This document shows, one piece after another, positions 26,673-64,000 of a DNA stretch of 64,000 nt; the first letter of the stretch is position 1, and every line of letters begins with the position of its first letter. Both the position numbers and the translations under genes were made by a program. The DNA lies in assembly GCF_000024205.1 (NCBI RefSeq), contig NC_013216.1, forward strand, positions 3,100,001 through 3,164,000, read 5' to 3'. The stretch comes from Desulfofarcimen acetoxidans DSM 771 (GTDB lineage: Bacteria; Bacillota; Desulfotomaculia; Desulfotomaculales; Desulfofarciminaceae). The notes under the pieces were generated by a model that saw only the letters and a list, made by a program, of their open reading frames with translations, did not search any database and had not been told where the DNA came from.

Positions 26673-28436
26673 ATGTTTCTAAAAAAATCGATTTTCAAAC
26701 GAAACAATAAAATATACTGTCATTATAAAATAGTAGAATCCTATCGTGAAGACGGAAAGGTTAAACACCGCATTTTATTTAACGTCGGCACATTGTCAGA
26801 TGAACAGGCCGAACGTTTACGAATTACTCTAAATGCTCATAACAATCCAGATATTATTGTTTCAAAACCGGAACAAATTGTTGTGACCAAGCATGCTGCA
26901 TATCTTGATGTAGCAGTACTAAACCATTTATGGCACGAGTGGCATTTTCATCAATTCTTTTCAAAAGATCAGTGGGTAGAAGCACTTGTAATTAACCGAT
27001 GTATCGACCCAAAAGCGAAAATTAATATCAAGGATTGGATGGAGAAAACAGTTATTCCTGCCTATTTGGGTATCGATGATCCTACCAAACTTGATAAATT
27101 TGAAGTTTATCGTACTCTTGACAGATTGCATAAATCAGAAGGTGAACTACAAACGTTCCTTTTCCATCAGATAAAAAACCGATGGCCACATACAGAGAAT
27201 GCGTTTTTTTATGACATCACCTCATCTTACTTGACGGGCAGTCGTTGTGTAATCGCTAAACTTGGTTACTCCAGAGATCACCGACCCGATTGCGAACAAA
27301 TAGTAATTGCCCTGATGATTACTCCTGAGGGGTATCCTTTTTACTGGCGTGTTATGCCGGGAAACACTCAGGACATCACAACAATTAAGCCTTTGATTGA
27401 GGATGTTAAAGCTCGCTTTGCACTAAAAAACTGTACCATGGTATTTGATCGTGGTATGGTATCTACAGACAACATTGTTGCGTTGGAATGCGAAAAATGG
27501 ACGTATGTTTCTGCAATGGATCGGGATGAGATTAAAAAAGCAGATTTTTTCAATACAGCATTACCGGAATCAGTTACCCCAGATAATTATGAACAAATTA
27601 TGGTCATGCAAGAGTTTCTCCCCTTTGACGAAAACGCTTTTTTATATTATCGCGAGTTTATAATTGATGATAGACGTTATATCCTGACCTTTGACGTGGC
27701 TCGTTTTTTTGATGAACATCATGCACAATTAAATAATGTTGCCTATTTTGTTCAATGGCTAACCGTTAAAAATCAGTCACTCCGTGAAGCTAAAAAGAAA
27801 CGTTGTCAAAGTTTGCTTGAACGGGAAGTTGCCGCTATGCTGAAGCGTAAACATTTAAAAAAATGGGTATCCGTCAATATTGAACCATATGATTTTGAAG
27901 TTATCAATAAACGGGGTAACTCACGAACCATTCAATCCTTTCAACTGTCGTACACGATTAATACCGTGGCACAAAAAAATGAGCAAAGAATTCATGGTAT
28001 TACATGCTTTATTACCAATTTGGATGTTACATCACATACAGCAATTGACATTATTCAATGGTATCGTCGCAAAAACAAAGTTGAAGAAGCATTCCATGAA
28101 ATTAAAGATCATCTAGATTTAAGACCAATTTACCTTACCCGAGAACAAAGGGTTATGGCACATGTAATAATTTGTGTATTGGCATACTTCATTTTCAATG
28201 ACATAGAGTACCGGTTAAAGCAAAATGATCTGGCTTATTCTACTGAAGAAGTTATTGGTACCCTAAGAGAATGTCTGGTTAATCGTCTTGCCATTCAACA
28301 AACAAATCGTTCTTGGTTGAGTATTACGCAACCTTCATCTCAATTAAAGGAGATTCTCCATGCGTTGAAATGTGAGGTTGTTATTGATAAAAAGCGTGTC
28401 GAACCAGTTCTAAAAGCAGCGGAGTGTTGGTTGTAG
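26673..28436 (+). CDS. IS1634-family transposase (IS4 superfamily DDE)
   Basis: 587 residues, full length for the family. The N-terminus FKRNNKIYCHYKIVESYRED is typical of IS1634/IS1549 transposases. DDE-fold pieces follow: FFYDITSSYL, then MVFDRGMVSTDN for the second aspartate, and a C-terminal YRRKNKVEEAFHEIKDHL that supplies the glutamate (Y-x2-R-x3-E-like signature). GGAGGGC lies 4-5 bp before the ATG. It catalyses movement of the element that disrupts the pRiA4b-domain gene. Confidence 0.92.
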   Translation: MFLKKSIFKRNNKIYCHYKIVESYREDGKVKHRILFNVGTLSDEQAERLRITLNAHNNPDIIVSKPEQIVVTKHAAYLDVAVLNHLWHEWHFHQFFSKDQWVEALVINRCIDPKAKINIKDWMEKTVIPAYLGIDDPTKLDKFEVYRTLDRLHKSEGELQTFLFHQIKNRWPHTENAFFYDITSSYLTGSRCVIAKLGYSRDHRPDCEQIVIALMITPEGYPFYWRVMPGNTQDITTIKPLIEDVKARFALKNCTMVFDRGMVSTDNIVALECEKWTYVSAMDRDEIKKADFFNTALPESVTPDNYEQIMVMQEFLPFDENAFLYYREFIIDDRRYILTFDVARFFDEHHAQLNNVAYFVQWLTVKNQSLREAKKKRCQSLLEREVAAMLKRKHLKKWVSVNIEPYDFEVINKRGNSRTIQSFQLSYTINTVAQKNEQRIHGITCFITNLDVTSHTAIDIIQWYRRKNKVEEAFHEIKDHLDLRPIYLTREQRVMAHVIICVLAYFIFNDIEYRLKQNDLAYSTEEVIGTLRECLVNRLAIQQTNRSWLSITQPSSQLKEILHALKCEVVIDKKRVEPVLKAAECWL

Positions 28437-49160: not shown

Positions 49161-49641
49161 TTAAAATATTTTCTTGCCGTATACAAATCCCTGCACATCA
49201 TTTAAAGCTTCCCCAAAACGCTGGAAGTGAACTACTTCTCTTTCCCTTAAAAATCTCAAACCGTCTATTAAGTCACGGTCGTCTGTTAGACAAATCAAAT
49301 GCTCGTAAGTTGTTCTGGCTTTTTGCTCGGCAGCTAAATCTTCATGCAAATCAGTTATAGGATCACCGGTAGCCTGAATGTACGCAGCAGTCCAGGGAAC
49401 TCCATTAGCATCATTATAAAATAACGCGTGATCATGCTGGGTATAATAGCCGGCTAGATCGACTGCTCTCAATTCCTCCGGTGTAGCTCCCTTCAAGAGC
49501 TTATACACCATAGTGGCAATAATCTCAAGGTGGGCAAGTTCTTCTGTACCTATATCTGTTAACAAACCCTTGGTTTTAGCTGTGGGCATGGTGTAGCGCT
49601 GCGTTAAATACCTTAAGGCCGCGGATAACTCTCCGTCGGGC
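49161..49641 (-). pseudogene. cotJC: cotJC, 3' part (spore coat manganese-catalase-like protein), interrupted
   Basis: The frame reads GGPDGELSAALRYLTQRYTMPT and continues through LLTDIGTEELAHLEIIATMVYKL, LHEDLAAEQKA and LRFLREREVVHFQRF to the usual GKKIF end. It matches CotJC from about residue 30 to the C-terminus. The first 30 or so residues, including MWVYEKKLQYP-like start, are missing. Upstream in frame is only SKYN and a stop, and the internal ATG at 49589 has no ribosome site. The break falls in the GG before PDGEL. The gene is therefore interrupted by the recombinase-bearing DNA, or decayed. Confidence 0.85.
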
Positions 49642-49650
49642 CCGCCCGAC
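49635..49650. other. Probable attachment-site junction of the recombinase element
   Basis: GTCGGGC-CC-GCCCGAC is a perfect inverted repeat with a 2-bp centre (49642-49643), exactly where CotJC homology stops and 15 bp from the recombinase stop codon. Large serine recombinases cross over at a central dinucleotide flanked by inverted half-sites. The cotJC-derived half would be the side towards 49635. Confidence 0.6.
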
Positions 49651-49665
49651 TTATAATTTTATTCC

Positions 49666-51240
49666 CTAAATATTAAACCTGACATCTACAATATTACCAT
49701 TGCCGTCTATGAATATATCAGTAAAGTTATTGACTAACTGAAACTTTTCCTCCATTGGCAGGCTATCAATATTATCGATCAAAGCCTTAATATCCTCATA
49801 TACTTTATAAATCTTCTCCTCAATCATATCTATTTGTTCCAGTTTACGGTTTAAGCTGTCTATTTCCTTTTGAGCAGCCAGTTTATTATCTCGAAGTTCC
49901 GCCATTCTCTCTTTATACTCTGCCACCGTGATAATGTCCTGCTCAAAAGCTAACTGCTGTTTTTTTATAGCATTATTTATTTGCTCCAGCAATGTTTTTT
50001 TGACTTCACGCTTTTTAACTAATTCGCTAAGATCATTTGTAAACAAATCAACATTTCTTCTAATAAAATTTATCATATTTGCCCGATCAGAAAAAATCTC
50101 CGCGATAAAGGCCAATATGGTATTATCGATTTTTTTCATATTCCAAATTTTTATTTTTCCATTGCACTTCCCGTTTCCGCCAAGACAACGATATTTGTAG
50201 GTTATACTTCTACATTGCTTATCCGCAAATCCATATATTTTCCCTTTGCATACATTGCAGCGCAATATACTTGATAACAAATACTTCCTGTCGCAAGACC
50301 ATTCATGATTGTATTTTTCTCTCCTCTGCCGCATTATCGTTTGGACTTTATTGTACTCTTCTTCAGTGATTAACGGCTCGTGTGTATTTTCCCTGACAAT
50401 CCACTCCTCACGTGGCCGCACCACTCTTTTTTGCTGACCCTTGCTGTCTCTGACAAGAGTAGTAGCGTTATAAATAGTTGTGCCCAGATAAACCGGATTA
50501 GACAGGATAGTCCTAACCGAATTGGTGCCCCACAACCCTCCCCTGCGCGTGCGTATACCCTGCTTGTTCAGCCATTTGGCTATTTTCAATTGTCCCCATC
50601 CACTAAGAAATAATTCAATTACCTGGCAAAAAACAGGCGCTGTAACAGGATTTCTTATGAGGTATTGTCGATCATCACTCAACATATAACCAAAGGCCGG
50701 AACAGATACATTGGTTTTGCCTTCTTTGGCCTTGATAATCTGAGTAATTTTTACACGCGAGGAAGTTGTTTTTCTTTCTTTTTGAGCTAATCCGCCATGA
50801 ATAATCAAGAGAAACTCGTCGTCATCTGTACGGCTGTCGTAGCTTTCTTTAATGGATAAAAAAAAGGCACCATGATCAGCCAAGGTGCGTTTAATGGAGA
50901 GTATATCCATTACATCACGGGAAGTCCTGGCTATTTCCTTTGCCACAATACCTTGTATTTTCCCTTCTTCTACATCTTTAAACATAAGCTGCATTTCATT
51001 TCTGAGATACGTATAAGCTCCTGACTTTACATCTGTGTAGTTTTTTACTAAGTTGTACCCGTTTAATTCAGCCCACTGCCGCAGAAGCTTTCCTTGATTT
51101 TGAATACTTGATTTTTGACCGTCTTTTTTTGTAGAAACCCTTATATATCCCCCGATGTTAACATTTTTTTCATCGATGGTGCTTTTCAGATCCTGGTATT
51201 TACCAAGTTTCTGCCCGGACACATGAGGAGGAAGCAGCAT
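49666..51240 (-). CDS. Large serine recombinase (SpoIVCA/phage integrase type)
   Basis: 524 residues. Resolvase catalytic domain (about 30-165; serine in YIRVSTKKDGQKSS, then AKEIARTSRD), Recombinase domain (about 185-290; GYMLSDDR, LNKQGIRTRRGGLWG), zinc ribbon (CNVCKGK, CRS, CLGG, CNGK) and a C-terminal coiled coil (about 400-500). This is the class that excises skin-like elements in the mother cell. ATG 51240 has GAGGG 8 bp upstream; GTG 51255 overlaps the stop of a 36-codon ORF. Its 3' end abuts truncated cotJC. Confidence 0.92.
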   Translation of the reverse strand: MLLPPHVSGQKLGKYQDLKSTIDEKNVNIGGYIRVSTKKDGQKSSIQNQGKLLRQWAELNGYNLVKNYTDVKSGAYTYLRNEMQLMFKDVEEGKIQGIVAKEIARTSRDVMDILSIKRTLADHGAFFLSIKESYDSRTDDDEFLLIIHGGLAQKERKTTSSRVKITQIIKAKEGKTNVSVPAFGYMLSDDRQYLIRNPVTAPVFCQVIELFLSGWGQLKIAKWLNKQGIRTRRGGLWGTNSVRTILSNPVYLGTTIYNATTLVRDSKGQQKRVVRPREEWIVRENTHEPLITEEEYNKVQTIMRQRREKYNHEWSCDRKYLLSSILRCNVCKGKIYGFADKQCRSITYKYRCLGGNGKCNGKIKIWNMKKIDNTILAFIAEIFSDRANMINFIRRNVDLFTNDLSELVKKREVKKTLLEQINNAIKKQQLAFEQDIITVAEYKERMAELRDNKLAAQKEIDSLNRKLEQIDMIEEKIYKVYEDIKALIDNIDSLPMEEKFQLVNNFTDIFIDGNGNIVDVRFNI

Positions 51241-51251
51241 ATTCCCTTCCC

Positions 51252-51362
51252 TCACCCTGTTTTTTTAGCAGACAGCTTAATAAAAAACCTGAGCAAGTTC
51301 TCATAAACCTTCTCTGGGATAATTATTTTCTTATCCCCGTTTAACTGAACTTCTATTTTCAT
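51252..51362 (-). CDS. 36-residue ORF upstream of and overlapping the recombinase
   Basis: AAGGAGTGAGG precedes ATG 51362 closely. The product is basic (MKIEVQLNGDKKIIIPEKV, ending KLSAKKTG). Its TGA overlaps the alternative GTG start of the recombinase, implying translational coupling. It could be a small partner such as a directionality factor, or a leader peptide. No homology is claimed. Confidence 0.5.
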   Translation of the reverse strand: MKIEVQLNGDKKIIIPEKVYENLLRFFIKLSAKKTG

Positions 51363-51560
51363 AATCCTCACTCCTTAGTACAAAATATTCGAAGTCAGGA
51401 TTTTATGAGACACTATAAAATAAAAAAAACACACATTCCTGAATTTATTTACAAATGGCTTCCTTTTTCTTTCTGGCCTCAAAACAACACTGGCGTTGCA
51501 ATATATTATATTTGGTACAACCAGCACAACTAATGGTAATAATGTAATTTGCGCCAGCCG

Positions 51561-52139
51561 CTACCGCCAGGAACCAATAGCTCGTACAATGCCCTCAACT
51601 AAAATGAGGAAACTATTAGAGTGATTTCTACGATAATCAATATAAGGTGCAATAAGCCTCGCACCTTTAAGTTTTTGGTACCTGGGAATTAGCCTTTTCA
51701 ATTCCTGAGCTGCATTACTCAGATTATCCGGCTCTCGAAATTTAGCTTTATTCTTCAGACGTGCAATTTCAGGTTTATTATAGGCCGCAGCCACTGCACC
51801 TAAATCCCCCAAAAACCATGACTCTAATTCGTTACAGGCAATTCTTACAACCGAATCATCTCTTCCGGCATCTACACACAACTGATACAATCTTTTTTTT
51901 AATCTAATGCAGTCAGCACCGTCTTGATCTCGTACAATAATAAATCTCACTCCGGGTTCCCGCCAAGCTCGTAACTTTCGGGGAATTGACTTTTCTAAAT
52001 CCTGTTTCCCTTCATGAGGAATAGTTTTAAAACTAACTTCAGAAGTATCGATTTCCAGAGAAGAGAGCAACCTGGGCAACAGATTATCCAAAAGAACTTT
52101 CATTGAAGGTTCCTCTAAAAGAAAAACTATTTTCTTCAT
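51561..52139 (-). CDS. DUF4276 protein (TOPRIM-like), partner of the AAA ATPase
   Basis: 192 residues. It has a TOPRIM-like layout: an acidic residue in FLLEEPS, then IIVRDQDGAD with the D-x-D pair, then CNELESWFLGD, the DUF4276 signature, and a C-terminal helix. Its ATG overlaps the ATPase stop by 4 bp (ATGA), so the two are translationally coupled. ATPase-plus-TOPRIM pairs resemble OLD and PARIS-type defence systems, where the TOPRIM protein is the nuclease effector. Defence is inferred from this and from the CRISPR setting. Confidence 0.78.
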   Translation of the reverse strand: MKKIVFLLEEPSMKVLLDNLLPRLLSSLEIDTSEVSFKTIPHEGKQDLEKSIPRKLRAWREPGVRFIIVRDQDGADCIRLKKRLYQLCVDAGRDDSVVRIACNELESWFLGDLGAVAAAYNKPEIARLKNKAKFREPDNLSNAAQELKRLIPRYQKLKGARLIAPYIDYRRNHSNSFLILVEGIVRAIGSWR

Positions 52140-53317
52140 CTGGGACCCGCACCATCAAAGAACCCCTGTTTCCATAGGGAGCCAAGCAAATCCCTTTCAT
52201 TTACAAGGTTTCGTACAAGTTCATTATCAGCTGCCCGCTGTACGATACTAAAACCGTCTTTCTTTGTTAACCAAAACAATTCAGATATATCTATTCCATT
52301 TACGAAATCCGGTGAATGCGTGGAAATAAATACCTGACCACCGTTATCACTATAACTTCTAAATTCCTCAGATAACTCGAATAAAAGCTCCGGGTGCAGT
52401 TGGTTTTCAGGTTCTTCGATACAAAGCAATGGATGTGGCTGTGGATCATTTAATAGCAGCAGGTAGGCAAACATCTTAATAGTACCATCTGATACAAAAC
52501 GTGCTACAAAGGGGTCTTTAAAAGATCCATCCTGAAAACGTAAAACGATCCGTCCATCTGCTGTCTCGGTAGCTTGAACATTGGTAACACCAGGCACCCT
52601 TTCAGACATTTTTTGCAAAATACGCTGAAAACTTTCTGGGTAGTGTTCATAAATAAATTGAGCAACCAGCGGTAAATTCTCACCAGTGGGTGATAGGTGC
52701 TCACTATAACCGGCATCCTGACTGGCCCGCGCTGCCTGAATATGAAAATCTGAAATATACCACCCTTCTATTAATCTACGAAAAGCAGCGATCTGAGGAA
52801 ACTTTTGAAACTGACCTAAGCCTTTAATGGCTAAGATTTCAGGCGAATCCAAGTGTTGTTCTTCCCGCTTTGGTTCTGCATTTGGTTTCACGTATTCATC
52901 CTCGTTAACAATAGCCACCCCAATACCCTCGCAAAAGTCCAAAAAGTGCCATGGTTGACCCTTTTGGCCCCTTCTGTATTTAAGAACCTCCCGCTTAACC
53001 ACCGGGATGCCTCTTTTGTTCGGTTCAATTACTAAGATATATGTAACAATAGGATCTCCCGGGTTGGGTCGAAATTTAATCTCAAATTCAATTGGACCCT
53101 TTGCTCCCCGAGAAACAACCTCTTTATACCCCCCGCGTTTAACCAAGGCTGATCTTATGTTATCTGTTAAAGCGTCATGCAAAAAACCGAAAACATCAAA
53201 CAAGGTAGATTTGCCCGAACCATTAGCCCCAAGAAAAACAGCCATATTAGGTAAATCCCGAATGCTTACATCACGAAAAACTTTGTAGTTTTTAATACGC
53301 AATGATTCTATTTTCAT
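52136..53317 (-). CDS. AAA family ATPase (AAA_21, ABC/SMC-like)
   Basis: 393 residues. Walker A FLGANGSGKST near residue 32, Walker B HPLLCIEEPENQLHPEL and D-loop/H-loop VFISTHSPDFVN near 320-340, with an insertion between that carries no known domain. ABC-type ATPases of this group act as sensors or regulators of a paired nuclease. ATG 53317 has GGGG 7 bp upstream, better than the longer start. DUF4276 follows with a 4-bp overlap. Confidence 0.85.
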   Translation of the reverse strand: MKIESLRIKNYKVFRDVSIRDLPNMAVFLGANGSGKSTLFDVFGFLHDALTDNIRSALVKRGGYKEVVSRGAKGPIEFEIKFRPNPGDPIVTYILVIEPNKRGIPVVKREVLKYRRGQKGQPWHFLDFCEGIGVAIVNEDEYVKPNAEPKREEQHLDSPEILAIKGLGQFQKFPQIAAFRRLIEGWYISDFHIQAARASQDAGYSEHLSPTGENLPLVAQFIYEHYPESFQRILQKMSERVPGVTNVQATETADGRIVLRFQDGSFKDPFVARFVSDGTIKMFAYLLLLNDPQPHPLLCIEEPENQLHPELLFELSEEFRSYSDNGGQVFISTHSPDFVNGIDISELFWLTKKDGFSIVQRAADNELVRNLVNERDLLGSLWKQGFFDGAGPR

Positions 53318-53595
53318 AATAATTCCCCACATTTTTTAGAAATAATATACCCCTTTTTAATATGATTATTTTTCATAATCCTTACGGTTTCAAACCCGCA
53401 TGATCTAAGTTCACACACTTCAATGAAAATGTTAATAGCCCTAAAAATTTCAAAAGGATACGATTCTTTATTCTTTTATGGGTGAGCACGTACACCAATT
53501 CACATGCTTCAAGCATAATTTACGTAGTATTGTGGCGCAACCATTCTCTCCCTTTTATATAGATATCATATCTCGTCTTTAAGGGAGGTGCAACA
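53318..53595. other. Intergenic stretch upstream of the ATPase pair
   Basis: AT-rich DNA with no gene seen. It should hold the minus-strand promoter of the ATPase-DUF4276 pair and the former 5' flank of the IS110 relic. AAGCATAATTT near 53512 resembles the right arm of the dispersed repeat, but nothing else matches. Confidence 0.35.
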
Positions 53596-53861: not shown

Positions 53862-56036
53862 CTAATACGGAACTGAATGAGCCAGCTTTCTTATCCGCCG
53901 TACAATTTTATCCGGCTCAGGGTTTGAGATTAACTCCTCCACCGCAGCAGGCCAGTGAACAAAGTAATTTGTCAGGGAGATTAGCAGCCCCTCTTTGGAA
54001 AGAAGTTTATTTAGACTATCTCTCAAAGCCTTTAACACTGACTTATACTCATTCTTATACTTAACTCCGCCCTGTGCCAGGATAGCAGCCTGCTCTGCAA
54101 GTATGCCCACGCCTATGGTATAGAGGGTGTCATTTTCTTGGCTGGCAAAGCATATTTTAAGTGCGCGGGCGTGTTTTTCCTGACCTGCTTTAATACTGCC
54201 ATTTACCAGAAGGTAGCTGCCCCACTTCCAGAATAATATTTCAGCGGGGTGCTCATCACTGCCGGAAACTAAAAATGGATGATTCTCTAAATGATACTCA
54301 GTCCAACCCTTATATAGCAAGCCAGCTAATTTTTCCTCTCCGTCCAAAGCGGATCGGGCCATAAGGCGGCTGTAGTGCATAAGAGAAAATAATTTCTGCC
54401 CCTCGGGATCAGCCGATAAACTTTCTGCTATTATCTTTATTTCAGACTTAGGGCCCAGGCCCAAAGATTTAGCCAGCCAGTCCAAAGCATCAGCATAATT
54501 TCCACTGTCTGTTTCAATATAGCAGCGATAGAGGTAATGCCTGGCTAAGTCATCCCATTTTTCAAACTCTGCGATAGCCAAATCTGAGTCATATCTGGCT
54601 CTTTGGTAGTAATCAGGGTCACCGCGTCCGAGAAAAGCATAAGCCTGCAGCCGGCACCCAAGAACCTTTCCTTTAAAATCTGATTTAAAGCCTTCTCCAA
54701 ACACCTGGGGCAGCGCAACCGGAAACAACTCGATAGTTTCCTCTATAAATTTATACATAACATTCATCAGCTTAATTGTACCCCAAAAGTCGTAGGAATT
54801 GGTAAGGTGCACGGCCTCCCTGAGGAAAAACTCAGAAATTGCATTCAAGTTTTCCCATCTTGAAGCCATAACCGGCAGCAGTCCACGTATATGTTGTACC
54901 TGCTTCTCCGCCATGGAAAGGTTGCCACGATGGGTGGCAATAGCCAGGTTAATCACCCTCAAATCAAACTCTAAAGCATCAATAGCAGCCCCTTCCGAGT
55001 CAGGCAACTTCTCTTTTAACGGCGGAATTAATAACTCCTGTACCAACTCAAGCAACTGCCGGCCCCGATGCAAGTCTCTCTCTACATGGACAAGGTAATA
55101 AAACCTCTCTCTCAATGTGGACAACTGGTGCGCCCGGCCATAACTTGACATGCCGGCTAACCGGTCTACGCAATCCCGAAGAAGTTCTTTTAATTTTTTT
55201 CCCAGTATCTCCTTATGAACCTGAGTCGAACCAAGGGCCAGAAGAGATGTAAAAGTCTCAAACATAGCCTCTCCAATAGCCCCCTCGCCCATTAGACGGG
55301 CTACTGCCCCGGTGCTGCCGTGCTCAAGAACCGTGTAGTAGAATCTTCCGACCTGTATTTCCATTTGATCTCGCTGACCGGGGACAATCCTTTTTTCGTT
55401 ATTCCGGTTATACCAGGCATTACAGACTACGTCCGCCAGCATAAGCCTCTCATCTTCTCTGGCAGATCCAATATCAAAGGAGCTAACCTGCCAGCTGCCG
55501 TAGCCTTGCATAAGCCCCTTTCGGACCCAGGACCAGTGCAGCCGTTCATTAAGACGGGAACTATATTCTTCCTGCGCCAGCACGCGCTTATAGCCGGGAT
55601 ACTTTTTATCGTCTGCCAGCCGCCTGGCAGCCAGCACATTGAGACACACCTTTTTATTAACTGCACCAAGATGCTCAAACAGCCGGGTAATGCCTTCAGC
55701 CAAAATATTTAAAAATGTAACATCCGGATCAACTATAAGTACCCGCTCATTGTTTTCAATTAGCACAGGCTGCAAATTATTTTCTCTAAGCAGGTTAAAA
55801 ACTGATAGAACAAAAGGACTTACTTTATCAGCAGGCATATCCGTCATATGCACCAGTTTTTGTCTGGGCAGCTCAACCTCATCAAAGGCACGATCAAAAA
55901 TACTCTTTGCCAGGCCTGCTGTTAGCAAGCCTGCCGGTGCAAGCACTCCCCCTACCAGTGAATTGCGTTTCTCCCCAGAATACCGGTCAGCAAAGTCGCC
56001 ACTCTCGTCTAAAAAAAGGCCAAAACTAAGGGTCAT
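53862..56036 (-). CDS. DUF3800 domain protein with long helical-repeat C-terminus
   Basis: 724 residues. DUF3800, an RNase-H-like fold, fills about 1-250: LFLDESGDF at the start and ERLMLADVVCNAWY with the second aspartate pattern. The remaining 470 residues are helix-turn-helix repeats of TPR-like character (for example ALDWLAKSLGLGPKSE). Ordinary DUF3800 proteins are about 250 residues, so the extension is notable. GGAGG lies 8 bp before the ATG. It follows the CARF effector gene by 49 bp on the same strand and is probably co-transcribed. A nuclease effector or regulator of the type III system is inferred. Confidence 0.7.
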   Translation of the reverse strand: MTLSFGLFLDESGDFADRYSGEKRNSLVGGVLAPAGLLTAGLAKSIFDRAFDEVELPRQKLVHMTDMPADKVSPFVLSVFNLLRENNLQPVLIENNERVLIVDPDVTFLNILAEGITRLFEHLGAVNKKVCLNVLAARRLADDKKYPGYKRVLAQEEYSSRLNERLHWSWVRKGLMQGYGSWQVSSFDIGSAREDERLMLADVVCNAWYNRNNEKRIVPGQRDQMEIQVGRFYYTVLEHGSTGAVARLMGEGAIGEAMFETFTSLLALGSTQVHKEILGKKLKELLRDCVDRLAGMSSYGRAHQLSTLRERFYYLVHVERDLHRGRQLLELVQELLIPPLKEKLPDSEGAAIDALEFDLRVINLAIATHRGNLSMAEKQVQHIRGLLPVMASRWENLNAISEFFLREAVHLTNSYDFWGTIKLMNVMYKFIEETIELFPVALPQVFGEGFKSDFKGKVLGCRLQAYAFLGRGDPDYYQRARYDSDLAIAEFEKWDDLARHYLYRCYIETDSGNYADALDWLAKSLGLGPKSEIKIIAESLSADPEGQKLFSLMHYSRLMARSALDGEEKLAGLLYKGWTEYHLENHPFLVSGSDEHPAEILFWKWGSYLLVNGSIKAGQEKHARALKICFASQENDTLYTIGVGILAEQAAILAQGGVKYKNEYKSVLKALRDSLNKLLSKEGLLISLTNYFVHWPAAVEELISNPEPDKIVRRIRKLAHSVPY

Positions 56037-56085: not shown

Positions 56086-57357
56086 TTAGTTAAAAATGAT
56101 TTCTCTTGGAAATTGTATTTCTTCATTATAACGGTCTTTTAGCTTTAGAATCTCACCGACCTCATTAATAAGTAATTGAACCGGTTCATACATATCCTCG
56201 TAGTCCTTTTTACTCAGGGGGGTGATGCCATGGGCAAGAATTGAGGTGTTCCTTTTTTTCGTCTCATTGATTAATTGATTACGGTATATAGCAATTACTT
56301 CACTGATAGGGCCCTTAAGATCCTTAATTAATTCAAAATTTGCCCAGAGCCCGATCTCAATCTTTCCGCTGCGCGTGTTTCTCATGGCCTCATATTTATC
56401 CCGTATACTTTCCGGTAAAAGCTCGACTTGGATGTCGCCACTTTTCAACGAGGGGCTGTTGTTCAGCAGGGTAATTTGCCCCAGCATTTCCAGTGCCCGG
56501 TACATGCGGGCCACGCCATCATCATATTGACCCCGGAAGGCCCGCCTTTGGGCATTCAGCAGCAGGTCAAAAACTATATTGTAGCCTACCTTTCTTGTCA
56601 GTTCCTCCTCAGATTCATACGATTCCTTATCTCGCCTGACATTTATAAAAAATCCAAAATGGTCCTTTATATAAGCTGCATAAGATTCAAGAAAGCTATA
56701 TGCCTTGTCATGGTCAAACTTATCCCAGGCATCCAACCCTTTGCTAATCACCTCATAGGCTTGAATTTCAGGCTCTATATCCTTAGGCAGCTCGAAGTCC
56801 GTAAGCTCAAGAATTAAGCTTATACAGCCCGAGTAGTCATATTTGCTGAAAAGCTCTTTAATCAACTTAAACCTTTTGTATATATATAAATCAGCACTAT
56901 ATTTACTAACCCGTTGGGTCCCGTCCCGAACCTTAACCAGGTCAGACCGGACTCCCTTAACAACACTGAGTAAACACCTGCCATCATCCATTGCTGCTGC
57001 GGCCAACCCGGCACTCATTGATTTCGTTCCACCGGTGTAGTCAATAATCAGCTGGCTGCCAGGGTACTCCAGGCGAACCCTTTGAATTATTCCAGCAGCG
57101 GTGACATAACAGTGATTAAGGTTATCAATCTCTTTAATTTTAATAATCTCATATTCTGAACTGGCCAGGCCTGTCCGCAAGGCAATTGGTTTTTCCCCAT
57201 CCTTCCCCTCATTAACCATTATGTAGCTGCCCTTGTTTTTTGGCGTCTGCGTATCATCAGAGCAAAGGAAATAAGTAAAATCAGGCTTGTTCTGGGTAAT
57301 CGAGGTAAATATAGGCTCAATAGAACCACCCACAGTAACAATTAAAACCTTATCCAT
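56086..57357 (-). CDS. CARF-domain CRISPR ancillary effector, TIGR02710 (Cas02710) family
   Basis: 423 residues. N-terminal CARF Rossmann domain with VTVGGSIEPIFTSI and IIDYTGGTKSMSAGLAAAA, the ligand-binding loops. A helical linker follows, then a C-terminal HEPN-like part with R-N-T-S-I-L-A-H (an R-x6-H motif near residue 375). Such proteins are type III accessory RNases switched on by cyclic oligoadenylate from Cas10. GGGGG lies about 7 bp before the ATG. Cas10 itself is outside the window. Confidence 0.82.
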   Translation of the reverse strand: MDKVLIVTVGGSIEPIFTSITQNKPDFTYFLCSDDTQTPKNKGSYIMVNEGKDGEKPIALRTGLASSEYEIIKIKEIDNLNHCYVTAAGIIQRVRLEYPGSQLIIDYTGGTKSMSAGLAAAAMDDGRCLLSVVKGVRSDLVKVRDGTQRVSKYSADLYIYKRFKLIKELFSKYDYSGCISLILELTDFELPKDIEPEIQAYEVISKGLDAWDKFDHDKAYSFLESYAAYIKDHFGFFINVRRDKESYESEEELTRKVGYNIVFDLLLNAQRRAFRGQYDDGVARMYRALEMLGQITLLNNSPSLKSGDIQVELLPESIRDKYEAMRNTRSGKIEIGLWANFELIKDLKGPISEVIAIYRNQLINETKKRNTSILAHGITPLSKKDYEDMYEPVQLLINEVGEILKLKDRYNEEIQFPREIIFN

Positions 57358-58068: not shown

Positions 58069-58890
58069 CTAACGCCTTATATGCACCGCCCTCGACTGCC
58101 CCATGCCCATTGTAGTTTTATATCCCACTCCGGCATAAAAGGCATATTCCGCCAGCATATGCAGTACGCTTATTATAATATCCTCCTCCTGCCGGCGTAT
58201 CCTAAAGGTACAGGTACCGGTAAAGCCCACCTGCTTGTATTTGTCAAAGTGCATTATCCTGGTCTGCAATTTATACGAGCCGGGGAAAACGTTTTCCCGG
58301 ATAAAGTCAATAAAGTTATCACCCAGGTTAATCGGGGAGTAATAATTCCATTTCTGCAGCAGATTCAAAAACACTTTCTGGGGGTCCGGCAAAGGATAAT
58401 TGCTGCCCCTGGCCCTAAAGGTTGTTGGTGAATAAAATTCTATTGTAATCCTGTCACCGGCCCCGGGGCAGGATATAATATTGCTATATAGCTCTTCATA
58501 ACTTGTGCTGCCTGCCCAAGAGTGAGCATCTGTGTTTAACGACCAGCCAGCCACCTCTAAACCAGCCCCTGCCAGCCCAATCTCTCCCGACAGCGAGGGG
58601 GCCCAGCTGTCAGTAAGCCACCTGGAGAATTCGGGATCTATAGAAGTTACACGAAAGGCATAAGCCTCCCCGGGGAACAATCTCCACCTGTTATCTTCAT
58701 AGATAACCCTGCCCAAAAGAGGTGAGACACTAAAAGGTTTTAAAGGTGTGGGGCTGTGCAGCTGACCTGCTAAATCCGGGTTCAGGAGCCTGACCCTATC
58801 CAGGAAGAAAGCATGCAACACCTGTCCCATTGAGGGTGGTACCAGCACCTCCCTGTTAACTTTTAGAAAAACAACACAGCTAGCTAACAA
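58069..58890 (-). CDS. cas6: CRISPR pre-crRNA endoribonuclease Cas6
   Basis: 273 residues, double ferredoxin-fold RAMP. The C-terminal glycine-rich loop GVGYKTTMGMGQSR is diagnostic. It cuts the repeat transcript 8 nt before the spacer, leaving the ATTGAAAC tag. The start is TTG 58890, 9 bp after GGAGG; no ATG fits. It stands as its own transcription unit between two decayed leader-repeat cassettes. Confidence 0.87.
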   Translation of the reverse strand: MLASCVVFLKVNREVLVPPSMGQVLHAFFLDRVRLLNPDLAGQLHSPTPLKPFSVSPLLGRVIYEDNRWRLFPGEAYAFRVTSIDPEFSRWLTDSWAPSLSGEIGLAGAGLEVAGWSLNTDAHSWAGSTSYEELYSNIISCPGAGDRITIEFYSPTTFRARGSNYPLPDPQKVFLNLLQKWNYYSPINLGDNFIDFIRENVFPGSYKLQTRIMHFDKYKQVGFTGTCTFRIRRQEEDIIISVLHMLAEYAFYAGVGYKTTMGMGQSRAVHIRR

Positions 58891-59381
58891 AAATATTTTC
58901 CTCCATTGTTATTCATAAATATTTTACATATAGTGTTGTTAATAGCGTCACGTATTAATTTGTTCATTTGACTTAAGCATTATTTCTTCACTTTTCATCT
59001 GAACACAACTCCAAGACAGCCCAACCCAGTGGCAACTTTGGCCTGTCTCCCTCCTCAATTGTATTATATGGTATAAGTATAAGTTCTACTGCATTGTTAC
59101 ATTATCCTGCAAAAAACTGCATATTCTTCAACAATTCCGCCGGCATCACAGGTTTTAGAGTAAATAAGTTACCCTTTTAAAATTATAGACTGGAGAGCAG
59201 GAAAAAAAGTTTCCGGTAAAATTGCAGAAGAAAGCCTTAGAGATATGAAAGACACTGAAATATAAAAACCAGAGGCCTATGACACTCCGGTTTTTAATTC
59301 TTTTTTTCAAAACCACTGCCAATCACTTGGGGCAAGTGTATTTTGACACCAAGAAAACAGATAAAAATATCTGTAAGACTA
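58891..59381. other. Intergenic region between cas6 and the second decayed repeat
   Basis: About 490 bp. A plus-strand open stretch near 59185-59264 reads KKVSGKIAEESLRDMKDTEI, with no start codon, like the tail of a lost small gene. A hairpin with a T run follows at about 59262-59300 (AAAAACC...GGTTTTT). Nothing else is seen. Confidence 0.4.
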
Positions 59382-59418
59382 TATTCAATTCCCTATGAGA
59401 ATTATTTTGTTTTTTGAC
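59382..59418 (-). CRISPR. Second solitary decayed CRISPR repeat
   Basis: 37 bp differing from the array repeat at five or six positions. No spacer follows. A shortened leader cassette lies between it and the cas2 stop. Confidence 0.78.
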
Positions 59419-59498
59419 GAGAGCCTTAACAGATTCCGCACCTTTTTATAATATTGAGCAACCACCCGATTATTTGCATAACAACGATGATCATTATT
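59419..59498 (-). promoter_or_regulatory. Truncated CRISPR leader-like cassette behind cas2
   Basis: It keeps a degenerate form of the 49-bp hairpin block (ATTGAGCAACCACCCG and ATTTGCATAACAACGATG) but has lost about 110 bp of leader compared with the other two copies. It directly follows the cas2 stop codon. Confidence 0.6.
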
Positions 59499-59777
59499 TT
59501 ACACTATATATATGCCATCGCTAAACGGTTCCGGACTTGCACCCAAACGTATAATATCTTCCTCACATCGACTACACTGGCGATAAAATATAATACTGTC
59601 TTCATTTTTTCTCATTAATCGCTCCAGTTTGTAGCGCAACATTATATAATTTTCTTCTTTTAAACAAGCTTCAAATACACTGAGCTGAACAGGGATTGCA
59701 TAATTACGCAAAGTTTTATATATTGCGCTGCGCCTTTTATCATCCTTGATGTCATAGGTTATTATAAAATGCTTCAT
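59499..59777 (-). CDS. cas2: CRISPR adaptation protein Cas2
   Basis: 92 residues, ferredoxin-like fold starting MKHFIITYDIKDDKRRS, with the conserved aspartate in the first strand, and the late DSIIFYRQC strand. With Cas1 it forms the spacer integrase. GGTGAG precedes the ATG, which lies 6 bp after the cas4/cas1 stop. Confidence 0.95.
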   Translation of the reverse strand: MKHFIITYDIKDDKRRSAIYKTLRNYAIPVQLSVFEACLKEENYIMLRYKLERLMRKNEDSIIFYRQCSRCEEDIIRLGASPEPFSDGIYIV

Positions 59778-59783
59778 CCCAGC

Positions 59784-61421
59784 TCACCTCACCATAAAAG
59801 GCTTGTATTCATTCAATTCCCCCCTTAATACCTTAGCAAAAAAGCGGGCTTGCAGTTCAAAAACACGCATATAAGATATTCTGTAACCAAACAACGGATG
59901 TGAGATCATCTCATGCCTCCGTTCTTCATAGGCACGGTAAAATTTCTTGCGACCACTGTCGTTTAAAAAACAACCACCCATTTTGTATTCAAAATCATCG
60001 GTATTTATCATACCCTTGTTTAAAACGGTCAAAACAACTGAATCTGCAACAATTGGCCGAAATTCTTCTATAAAATCCAGTGCCAATGCTGGTCTGCCAT
60101 AATCCGAGCGGTGCAAAAAACCAATATACGGATCATAGCCCACGATAGACACAGATGCAATCATGTCTTTAGTCAAAAGAGTATAAGCAAAACTAAGCAA
60201 AGCATTCACAGGGTCTCCCGGAGGTCGCCTGCTGCGCTGTTGAAAATTGAAGGGCACATGCTGCTTGATCATGTAATTAAAAACTCTGAAATATTCACGG
60301 GTAGCAGCACCTTCTATACCCATTAAGCTATTTAATGAATCTGCTTTATATAAATTTTTGCTCAAAGACTTAAGTCTACAAATAGCTTCTTCTAATTGTT
60401 TTTCTTTAAGATCCCTATTATAACGAAGCAGTATTGTACGCATATTGGCCAGCTTTCCCTGCACAAAAAGAACGGCATACTTTAAGCGCAATTCCATATC
60501 CTGATATGCTTTATGTTGTGCTATGCGCAGAGCAGAATTTTTCGTCAGTGCCGGCTGGAGTGAACCGTAATACTTACCTGCGCGTGAAACGAAATGCACT
60601 TCTGTTCCTCTATCAAGTAAAAGCTTGATTACCTGCGCAGATATATTAACTGTACCGGCCAGCACCAATTGCTCCAGATTACACAAGGGTATATCAACCA
60701 GCACTTCTTTATCTCTGGTCACCTGAACTCGTTCACCTTTCTTACGTACATATGCACCCGGTTCATCAACATATAATACCCTGCCAAGATTTAATGACGG
60801 TAGTGGGCGGGCAGGTGTTTTATCATCTGCTCCGGTTAGATAATTCACCTCATAAGGCAAACAGCGACCGGCAAGAGAACAGCCATAACAGCGGAAATCT
60901 GCCAGCGGCTGAGGTATTTGCCCCGAATAGATTATTTCATAAGCCCTTTTAATCGTATTCTCCACCAATTCACGCAGTGATCGATCAAAGACCACTACAC
61001 GGCGGGCATGTGATTGGCTGTAATATATGTAACCACGGAGAATTTCCCGACCTAATTTTTCCTCCAAAAGCATGGCCTGAGCACAAACCTGAACGTCATC
61101 ATTCAGACTTTCCTTGAGTTCACCTTTTTTATACTCTACAGGATAAATATCCTCTCCTTCTTCAACCGCATCCAATACTCCGATTAGCCGCAGTCTTTCA
61201 GAAGAGACCATAACAGACTTATTCTGTTGGTATTCTTCTCTGCTTATTGCTAAACGATTGTTCCGTTTTTCTTCTTGCAGTTGCCCTTCTAAAAGGTGAG
61301 CGTTATACTCTTTAGCGCCCTCCACAATACGATAATAAAAGTTTCTCGGACAATAAAGAATTTCCGCTACAGCTGAAACAGGTAGATATTTATACTGTGA
61401 ATCGCAACACATTTCATCCAT
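59784..61421 (-). CDS. Cas4-Cas1 fusion protein
   Basis: 545 residues. Cas4 part (about 1-205): a first cysteine in EILYCPRNFYYR, nuclease core VEYKKGE and the Fe-S cysteines CYGCSLAGRC. Cas1 part (about 220-545): RVLYVDEPGAYVRKKG, the metal glutamate in EGAATREYF, and H...D in FLHRSDYGRPALALDFIEEFRP. Cas4 trims prespacers for PAM selection before Cas1-Cas2 integration. The fusion is best known from type I-G loci; here it adjoins type III-B genes. ATG 61421 follows AGGAAG by 8 bp. Confidence 0.93.
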   Translation of the reverse strand: MDEMCCDSQYKYLPVSAVAEILYCPRNFYYRIVEGAKEYNAHLLEGQLQEEKRNNRLAISREEYQQNKSVMVSSERLRLIGVLDAVEEGEDIYPVEYKKGELKESLNDDVQVCAQAMLLEEKLGREILRGYIYYSQSHARRVVVFDRSLRELVENTIKRAYEIIYSGQIPQPLADFRCYGCSLAGRCLPYEVNYLTGADDKTPARPLPSLNLGRVLYVDEPGAYVRKKGERVQVTRDKEVLVDIPLCNLEQLVLAGTVNISAQVIKLLLDRGTEVHFVSRAGKYYGSLQPALTKNSALRIAQHKAYQDMELRLKYAVLFVQGKLANMRTILLRYNRDLKEKQLEEAICRLKSLSKNLYKADSLNSLMGIEGAATREYFRVFNYMIKQHVPFNFQQRSRRPPGDPVNALLSFAYTLLTKDMIASVSIVGYDPYIGFLHRSDYGRPALALDFIEEFRPIVADSVVLTVLNKGMINTDDFEYKMGGCFLNDSGRKKFYRAYEERRHEMISHPLFGYRISYMRVFELQARFFAKVLRGELNEYKPFMVR

Positions 61422-61527
61422 AATAGTCACTTCCTAATTAACATATAGTGCCAATATAATTGCCTTTATGGATGTTTAATATACTTAGGGAATATAATTT
61501 TCTACTCACAGAACCTATAAGACGGAC

Positions 61528-62074
61528 GTTTCAATTTCTTGTGGAAATGTTTGTATAGAGGTGATAATCTTGAATTAGAGGATGAGGAGGTTTCAATTCC
61601 CTTGGGAATTATTTTGTTTTCAGACATGAAGAGATGGATTTCATTAGACGGATAAATGGTTATGTTTCAATTCCCTATGGGAATTATTTTGTTTTCAGAC
61701 CGTCAGCGAAGATTAAAGGCTCTTGGATTTTATGTCCAGTTTCAATTCCCTATGGGAATTATTTTGTTTTCAGACGATTGTAAAAGCTAAAATTGTTACA
61801 TATAAAACTATTGAGTTTCAATTCCCTATGGGAATTATTTTGTTTTCAGACTTTACTATCCGATCTTGAATATCAAGTAGCATTATGTAGTTTCAATTCC
61901 CTATGGGAATTATTTTGTTTTCAGACATAGAGGTGAGGAACCGCCTAAATGAAGGCGGTTTTAGTTTCAATTCCCTATGGGAATTATTTTGTTTTCAGAC
62001 ATAGAGGTGAGGAACCGCCTAAATGAAGGCGGTTTTAGTTTCAATTCCCTATGGGAATTATTTTGTTTTCAGAC
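61528..62074 (-). CRISPR. CRISPR array, seven repeats plus a decayed terminal one
   Basis: Repeats of 37 bp at 61664, 61739, 61815, 61890, 61964 and 62038, plus a 36-bp variant at 61590. They begin GTTTCAATTCCC and end GTTTTCAGAC on the plus strand, so the transcribed (minus) form ends in ATTGAAAC, the usual crRNA tag. A strongly diverged repeat at about 61528-61564 closes the array. The six spacers are 37-39 bp. The two next to the leader (61927-61963 and 62001-62037) are identical. Transcription runs towards cas4/cas1. Confidence 0.95.
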
Positions 62075-62372: not shown

Positions 62373-63548
62373 TCACATTAATACCGATTTTATTTTCTCC
62401 ACTTTATCTTTGTTTTTCCCTTTCGGTTTTTTCCAATCGTTCGGCTTATTTTTCCGGTACCACTCAGCCAGTATAGCTGCAATTTCAAGACGCTCTGCAG
62501 GCTCAGCTTCCTCCAGGCGGGGTAACCATTTTTTAGTTAATTGCTCCATAAAATCATTCGGTCTGTCGCTTACCCCGTCCTCTTCCATTTCCCGCCGGAC
62601 CTGGCTCATGGACGCTAATTCATTCAGGCGTTTTTCCGCCAACTCTTTTTCTATTCTTTCTTGCTCTTGCTGCTTTTCTTCTCTCTGCTGTTTTTTTCTC
62701 CTATCTTCCCACATCTGCTCAGCCTGAAGATCTTGCACAAAGCGACCATATCCTACTGCTGTCTTAGCACCGGCACCTTGCCAAGTTAGGGCTTCTTCCA
62801 ACCATTGAAAAACCTTTTGAACATCTTTTTTAGACTGCTCTTCTTCCGGATGACACGGGGCTACTGCGAAAATAAAGGCCTGCCCGGGGGCAACAGTGAG
62901 AAATTGAATAGGCTCGGGTTTTAACCAGTCGGCCGGGGGGGTTTTATCACGGTAATAATCTGAATAATGCGGTGTCATTATTTCCGCTTCAAGCCGCACT
63001 GGATCTACGGGTAAGGCATCAAAAAACAGCACACTGCCTAACTTTTTCTCTGATTTATCCCGGGGACCGAATATGCGGTTTATAACATCCCCCTTTTCAT
63101 CTCCGGGGAGATAATTTTCTTCCTGGTTTTCCACCCATGAACGTATTACTCCTTTAAAAGATGTGCCGGGTAAGTAAGGAGTACCCAGAGTATGATGCCA
63201 GGCAAAACCATTTTCTACCGGGTGTTCCCGCCCCAAGCCGCTAACAAAACGCCACTCCGTAGCCAACACACACATTTTGCCTTTCAAGATCTCAACCATA
63301 TTAACCAATCGCCGGTTCATTTCACTTATTCGTTCTGCTTTCCCAATTTTCATGCCCGTAACTGTATTAATCCATTCGGCCTTAGGATTAATAGTTGTTT
63401 TATTTTGAGGAAAAGATTTTAGATTCCAGTAGCTCCCTCCATTAACTATCCACTTATGGCAAAACTTATCATACCACAGACCGGCATTGCTATCCCCAGC
63501 ATTTAATTCCTTAGGTACATTATGCTCATAATATAAAGGCAGCTTCAT
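62373..63548 (-). CDS. cmr6: Type III-B RAMP protein Cmr6, with C-terminal extension
   Basis: 391 residues. RAMP core in about 1-285: WRFVSGLGREHPVENGFAWH, then the glycine motif LPGTSFKGVIRSW, and the late GAGAKTAVGYGRF. After it comes about 105 residues of highly charged coiled-coil (KKQQREEKQQEQERIEKELA) and a basic tail (KKPKGKNKDKVEK), longer than usual for Cmr6. It is a backbone end subunit of the Cmr complex. Its ATG overlaps the cmr5 stop by 1 bp. Confidence 0.9.
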   Translation of the reverse strand: MKLPLYYEHNVPKELNAGDSNAGLWYDKFCHKWIVNGGSYWNLKSFPQNKTTINPKAEWINTVTGMKIGKAERISEMNRRLVNMVEILKGKMCVLATEWRFVSGLGREHPVENGFAWHHTLGTPYLPGTSFKGVIRSWVENQEENYLPGDEKGDVINRIFGPRDKSEKKLGSVLFFDALPVDPVRLEAEIMTPHYSDYYRDKTPPADWLKPEPIQFLTVAPGQAFIFAVAPCHPEEEQSKKDVQKVFQWLEEALTWQGAGAKTAVGYGRFVQDLQAEQMWEDRRKKQQREEKQQEQERIEKELAEKRLNELASMSQVRREMEEDGVSDRPNDFMEQLTKKWLPRLEEAEPAERLEIAAILAEWYRKNKPNDWKKPKGKNKDKVEKIKSVLM

Positions 63549-63949
63549 TATTTTTCACCTTCCGGATTGTGCAAATACGCTGCTGCAAATTTTTTAAGCC
63601 ACTGCAGCCAGGCCAATGCCTCGGCCTGGGCGCGTATATAGGCATTGCGGTCATTTGAGGTAATGGCCTCCATTAAGTCTTCTCCCTTGTTATAAGGCAC
63701 TACTTCTCTATCACTGCAAAGCCATTCTCTTAAATGCGTATACAAAATATAATGTGCGTCTTTTTTATTGTCCTTAGCTTTAGCCAACAAGGTTGCTGCG
63801 GCCTGGCCTAGGCCATTCGCCAAAATAGTAGCTGGGAGACTCTTGGCATAAGAGGAATATTCAATCAGCAAATCCTTACGTTCCTGTCTCACCTCTTTCA
63901 CTTTTTGCAGGGCATCCGCTGCCCGTTCTTGTTCAAGTGTTTTGCTCAT
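63548..63949 (-). CDS. cmr5: Type III-B small subunit Cmr5
   Basis: 133 residues, all helical. It starts KTLEQERAADALQKVKEV and has SYAKSLPATILANGLGQAAATLLAKA, the family signature. It bridges the Cmr backbone along the target RNA. GGGGGG lies 6 bp before the ATG, which overlaps the preceding cmr4 stop (ATGA). Confidence 0.93.
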   Translation of the reverse strand: MSKTLEQERAADALQKVKEVRQERKDLLIEYSSYAKSLPATILANGLGQAAATLLAKAKDNKKDAHYILYTHLREWLCSDREVVPYNKGEDLMEAITSNDRNAYIRAQAEALAWLQWLKKFAAAYLHNPEGEK

Positions 63950-64000
63950 TTGTTACCCCCCTGTTTCTCCGGCCAAGCTACCGCACACCAACCCTGCCCC
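63946..64000 (-). CDS. cmr4: Cmr4, C-terminal end (cut by window edge)
   Basis: Only the last 17 or so codons are present: GQGWCAVAWPEKQGGNK then TGA overlapping the cmr5 start. Cmr4 commonly ends after a G-x-G-W/I stretch like this, and gene order cmr4-cmr5-cmr6 is usual. The identity rests mainly on position. Confidence 0.55.
   Translation of the reverse strand, partial: GQGWCAVAWPEKQGGNK

Follow-up and report, generated by a model that had tools for sequence, protein, structure and literature searches.

Intervening elements that divide sporulation genes have been described in a handful of genes, which in the literature cited here are sigK, spsM, spoVFB, gerE, and yabG. Excision of the skin element rebuilds sigK in the mother cell, and in C. 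difficile a small protein directs this excision; the skinCd element in sigK uses the recombinase CD1231 and the directionality factor CD1234 (PMC5025042). Excision of SPbeta in sporulation has also been reported (PMC4191935), and vfbin is part of a regulated rearrangement (PMC10747680).

We analysed a locus of Desulfofarcimen acetoxidans DSM 771, whose genome is a single 4.55-Mb contig. The window, a stretch of 64,000 nucleotides, covers positions 3,100,001-3,164,000 of this contig; positions below are those of the window unless they are given as contig positions. An initial annotation of the window had proposed that cotJC is interrupted here by an element with a recombinase at one edge and with the 5' part of the gene possibly lying beyond 64 kb.

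The two pieces of cotJC and their junctions

A CotJC query run against the whole contig matched in three places, corresponding to a 3' piece of cotJC, a 5' piece, and a distant paralogue. We take cotJC to be the gene of a coat-associated manganese catalase, and the 3' piece, on the minus strand at 49161..49635, matches the Mn_catalase Pfam family (2.6e-52) in a frame that is continuous with that of the 5' piece. Upon upstream extension of ORF 49161-49589, the CotJC homology begins at GGPDGEL, codon 30, in agreement with the abrupt start that had been read about 30 codons into the gene. The predicted 5' part was located beyond the window at contig 3,214,174-3,214,275, on the same strand as the 3' piece and with cotJB and cotJA directly upstream (contig 3,214,300-3,214,994). 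This piece, MWIYEKKLEYPVRVSKKDVKMAKYLITQYGGPD, holds codons 1-33, matches amino acids 1-34 of the query (E 2e-11), and lies 64.5 kb from the 3' piece, inside the span of about 200 kb in which the initial annotation had expected it. An intact second cotJC, which that annotation had named as evidence against a split gene, was not found in the genome; the sole further match, at contig 1,129,629, is a 36-38% paralogue.

Both junctions carry the same 11-bp core, GGCGGGCCCGA. The left core is at 49636..49646 on the minus strand, inside the 16-bp palindrome GTCGGGC-CC-GCCCGAC that had been noted at 49635-49650 and is present there, and the right core is an exact copy beyond the window at contig 3,214,178-3,214,188. 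On the coding strand the 5' junction reads CAATAC-GGCGGGCCCGA-TTTATGATTTT and the 3' junction reads AAAATTATAAGTCG-GGCGGGCCCGA-CGGAGAG. Joining the pieces at the common 11-mer gives one 190-aa CotJC frame without stops, in which the peptide across the junction spans QYGGPDGELSAALR; the core-to-core distance, and with it the element size, is 64,542 bp. We are nearly certain that the element is site-specific and that removing it exactly would restore cotJC. There is next to no chance that an assembly artefact displaced part of the gene in this single-contig genome with identical in-frame cores, and the idea is refuted by independent assemblies of many genomes, which contain this junction and its homologous arms.

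The insertion could instead be decaying, with cotJC a pseudogene here and the 36-38% paralogue doing its work. The presence of the paralogue in the genome fits such a scenario. However, the joined frame is intact and is 90% identical to the uninterrupted cotJC of the nearest relative (G001, the one further family member in the comparison), a value that mixes selection before and after insertion. G001, with its intact cotJC, also has a comparable paralogue, and the same arrangement is intact in many lineages. We consider decay very improbable.

The recombinase and related elements

One edge of the element encodes a large serine recombinase, as had been proposed. The 524-aa protein is encoded on the minus strand at 49666..51240, with Pfam matches to PF00239 Resolvase (3.2e-30) and PF07508 Recombinase (6.7e-28), and its stop codon at 49666-49668 lies 15 bp from the palindrome, the distance given in the initial annotation. 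Upstream on the same strand is a small ORF of 36 aa (51252..51362), which matched nothing in Pfam or PHROGs. Similar small ORFs, sharing the motif IPxxxYexxlrxlikk, lie just upstream of many related recombinases; such an ORF was not recognised at every related locus. We regard this ORF as a candidate recombination directionality factor. We considered whether the recombinase had come from a phage recently; this is unsupported, as its best phage integrase matches are only 25-27% identical and the viral contigs searched contain no relative. Recombinase-domain matches in the whole genome number 17, and four large serine recombinase domains occur in tandem at contig 1,578,770-1,583,353. Elsewhere in the window, a 587-aa ORF (26673-28436) is insertion-sequence transposase-like by eye.

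When the element ends are joined they read AAAATTATAAGTCGGGC-GG-GCCCGATTTATGATTTT, an inverted repeat in which 15 of the 17 positions per arm agree. In Pelotomaculum terephthalicicum and Ruminiclostridium papyrosolvens the equivalent arms match at every position. An inverted repeat around a central GG is what a serine-integrase attP would be expected to show, and since the rejoined ends take this form we read the palindrome at 49635-49650 as belonging to the attachment site. We also considered whether the palindromic GGGCCC would permit integration in either orientation. Elements do occur in two orientations relative to cotJC, but the reconstructed attP is symmetric around GG, GG has polarity, and both element orientations keep it in the cotJC sense; the idea was therefore dropped.

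The rejoined CotJC was searched against 113 genomes of the order, and junctions were then read. cotJC is split in 24 of the 88 genomes with a match; a few of these calls depend in part on contigs that end at the core (G071, G098) or on mixed contigs (G109, G014). The splits fall at site A (codons 30-33) in ten genomes, site B (codons 54-59) in nine, and site C (codons 62-65) in one; three more are split at both A and B, and G020 at all three, leaving four pieces. Between the three sites, representative recombinases share only 21-25% identity. By the established chemistry of manganese catalases, the first metal ligand, E35, comes just after site A, and site B falls between E35 and E65/H68; this closeness to metal-ligand residues may explain why the site A and B codons are stable targets. 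In G020 (L074, L075, L076) one middle cotJC piece is only ~12 codons long (L075 near 11565). The site-B element of G036 carries an operon at L080:5448-9193 that resembles a germinant-receptor operon (gerA/gerB/gerC type by eye).

The recombinase found here belongs to a family tied to site A. All eleven recombinases of the order that are at least 54% identical lie beside a site-A fragment, except that of G071, which is at a contig end; the cotJC 3' piece of G071 likewise ends at the core. The nearest relative away from cotJC, the one 42% relative in the order (G056), may split another gene. At this locus (L129:1600-4326) there is a small ORF upstream, and a frame starting at a P-loop (VGKST) comes next. 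Among 84,980 species genomes we found 30 related recombinase loci, and a cotJC site-A fragment lies alongside in 26 of them; of the remaining four, three are truncated where contigs end, and L121 is aberrant. The hosts include Desulfotomaculum relatives, Syntrophomonadaceae, Heliobacteria, Ruminiclostridium, Acetivibrio, and others, and the recombinase tree groups broadly by host lineage. Members of this dedicated family repeatedly split one coat gene in several lineages of Bacillota. Minimal cotJC elements of ~3.2 kb (L107, L108, L113, L115) contain the recombinase, a small ORF, a conserved protein of ~340 aa (MGNKKDINLLPEE...), and little else.

Selection, a promoter-like site, and proposed excision

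The cotJC 3' pieces were compared between pairs of split genomes. The dN/dS values were ~0.03 in Pelotomaculum, 0.04 for G022/G025, and 0.03 and 0.10 in the Clostridium/Herbivorax group. For the last of these pairs, dS is similar for the recombinase and both cotJC pieces (1.10, 0.84, and 0.80), as expected if the insertion was inherited from a common ancestor. Without regular rebuilding of the gene, purifying selection on promoterless 3' pieces would be difficult to account for. Two cases bear on the joined state. In the metagenome bin G014, site A is joined on contig C38 and split on contig C345, and the two contigs agree at all 62 bp between the core and the point where C38 stops, which shows that the sample contains both states, through excision or strain mixture. 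Two contigs of G105 overlap by exactly 141 bp, with the overlap ending at site B, which suggests that both states are present in that sample as well, again through excision or strain mixture.

A two-box motif, GTGACAT-N15-CATAATATA, was trained solely on 40 cotJA upstream regions. It resembles mother-cell promoters, and its first box is also like the SpoIIID site given in PMC5025042. Over the 300 bp before 29 recombinases, the motif gave a mean score of 7.8, compared with 4.86 (sd 0.53) in dinucleotide-preserving shuffles (z 5.5) and 5.44 in 243 control upstream regions (Mann-Whitney p 1.5e-4), statistics that are not fully independent because the recombinase loci are related to one another. 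Many of the best sites lie directly before the small ORF. In D. acetoxidans the promoter-like site is GTCTCAT-N15-AATATTTTG at 51381..51411 on the minus strand, with the AATATTTTG box at 51381-51389, and 2 of 400 shuffles score as high. Strict consensus scans for sigma-E and sigma-K before the recombinases each matched 1 of 29 loci, which is chance level, and the cotJ motif was not enriched before site-B recombinases (z 1.1).

The purifying selection on the fragments, the retention of split loci over long divergence, the putative cotJ-type promoter, and the joined and split forms in G014 together make it likely that the 64,542-bp insertion in cotJC is a sporulation intervening element, with programmed excision in the mother cell during sporulation. 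The cotJ-type promoter would switch on the operon of the small ORF and the recombinase in the mother cell during sporulation, and the small protein would serve as the directionality factor for the recombinase. The recombinase would then pair both element ends and cut at the central GG, releasing the element as a circle, after which cotJABC could be transcribed whole. The forespore would retain the element, so that the spore inherits the split cotJC along with the cargo, both CRISPR-Cas systems included, and the dying mother cell would lose that cargo. Mutants of cotJC-type genes in C. difficile and B. subtilis are reported to have no marked coat defect (PMC11222575, PMC12122855), and the pressure to rebuild cotJC must therefore be judged from its conservation.

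A different account, which we consider unlikely, is that of an ordinary integrative genomic island for which the conserved cotJC sequence is the attachment site; excision would be rare, linked to transfer, and free of sporulation control, and carriers would live without CotJC. Variable cargo, two orientations, and three sites point to repeated acquisition of elements, defence cargo is typical of islands, and the strict sigma consensus scans were negative, all of which suit such an island. It does not account well for promoterless 3' pieces that remain open and under purifying selection in lineages with a common insertion, for elements as small as 3.2 kb that persist in place without a recognised transfer gene, or for the putative cotJ-type promoter that precedes the recombinase operon.

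Element cargo and known intervening elements

All called genes of the element are on the minus strand, like cotJ. The Pfam scan covered 38 element proteins and the small ORF, all but a few of the element's ORFs. The defence cargo named in the initial annotation, a type III-B CRISPR locus, an ATPase/DUF4276 pair, and CARF genes, is present inside the element. Beyond the recombinase operon, in order of rising coordinates, are the DUF4276 protein and AAA ATPase (51561..53332; Pfam, and PADLOC candidate system HEC-01), a 724-aa protein of no recognised family (53862..56036; no match in Pfam, PADLOC, or PHROGs), a Csx1/Csm6-like CARF-HEPN effector (56086..57357; Pfam and PADLOC), and Cas6, Cas2, and a Cas4-Cas1 fusion (58069..61430; Pfam). 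A CRISPR array of 6 repeats (61664..62074) precedes the type III-B Cmr operon, which runs through Cmr6, Cmr5, and then Cmr4, Cmr3, Cmr2, and Cmr1 from 62373..64000 on to contig 3,168,898. A 300-bp stretch including the cmr5 start (63900-64000 onward) is repeated 8.4 kb away at contig ~3,172,273-3,172,572 with 93% identity.

Beyond the window the element continues with a small CRISPR array of 4 repeats (contig 3,171,738-3,171,997), a TerD group with PP2C, von Willebrand A, kinase-like, radical SAM, and M48 proteins (contig 3,177,858-3,188,284), a CRISPR array of 148 repeats (contig 3,189,932-3,199,658), a type I Cas operon whose Cas3-, Cas8-, and Cas6-like roles are assigned only from sequence and position (contig 3,199,833-3,208,202), and a sensor-kinase trio of kinase/CheR/kinase type (contig 3,208,750-3,213,953). 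Pfam also identified a second CARF-type protein (a weak Csa3_N match) and two WYL regulators. Among the 38 proteins scanned with Pfam there were no phage families apart from the recombinase, structural ones included, and no conjugation genes (relaxase, mating-pair), and of six element proteins compared with PHROGs the recombinase was the sole match. The island does not hold all CRISPR-Cas of the cell, as three of the five cas1 genes are outside it. Nor is the kinase/CheR trio specific to cotJC elements, as relatives occur elsewhere in several genomes. The site-B elements of G022 and G025 (L083, L084) carry a trio 56-66% identical to that of D. acetoxidans, and CheR genes related to the trio are also found away from cotJC.

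We moderately favour the view that cotJC serves spore formers as a standing docking gene for islands, with several unrelated recombinase families at three neighbouring sites that can leave one gene in four pieces, and that the two CRISPR-Cas systems of the D. acetoxidans element are a germ-line-only trait, physically removed in the mother cell and retained by the spore. Were this true, every cotJC piece would be joined at the DNA level in each sporulating mother cell. At one extreme cotJC elements carry almost no cargo (3.2 kb), and at the other two CRISPR-Cas systems. With such elements one can test why sporulation genes stay split over time, whether an island can safely be lost from a terminal cell line, and what ties defence islands to their hosts. 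For biochemistry, the recombinases, the near-palindromic attP sites, and the candidate directionality factors form a defined set.

The literature we searched on cotJC with excision, prophage, or intervening elements, a search with most subscription papers and all preprints outside its scope, gave no account of cotJC as a split gene; within that literature, cotJC appears to be a target gene not previously described for skin-type intervening elements. As in D. acetoxidans, a mobile element, the phage phi027 of C. difficile, lies beside a cotJC homologue, but it is described as adjoining that gene without splitting it, and excision in sporulation is not reported for it (PMC11222575, PMC12122855). 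SPbeta in spsM (PMC4191935), and vfbin in spoVFB and yin in yabG (PMC10747680), are likewise site-specific and split sporulation genes. These three are prophage or prophage-like, whereas the recombinase of the cotJC element is only 25-27% identical to its best phage integrase matches. The gin element in gerE of Bacillus cereus (PMC5595907) similarly lacks phage genes and has a serine recombinase and a directionality factor, for which the cotJC element has a candidate. Contrary to gin, which is 28.6 kb with three recombinases (PMC5595907), the cotJC element is 64.5 kb with one, carries CRISPR-Cas cargo, and interrupts another gene. As with skin in sigK of B. subtilis and C. difficile, a sporulation gene is split by an element with a serine recombinase. 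Here the interrupted gene is cotJC in place of sigK, excision is predicted, defence genes including CRISPR-Cas take the place of prophage remnants as cargo, and the small ORF immediately precedes the gene of the recombinase.
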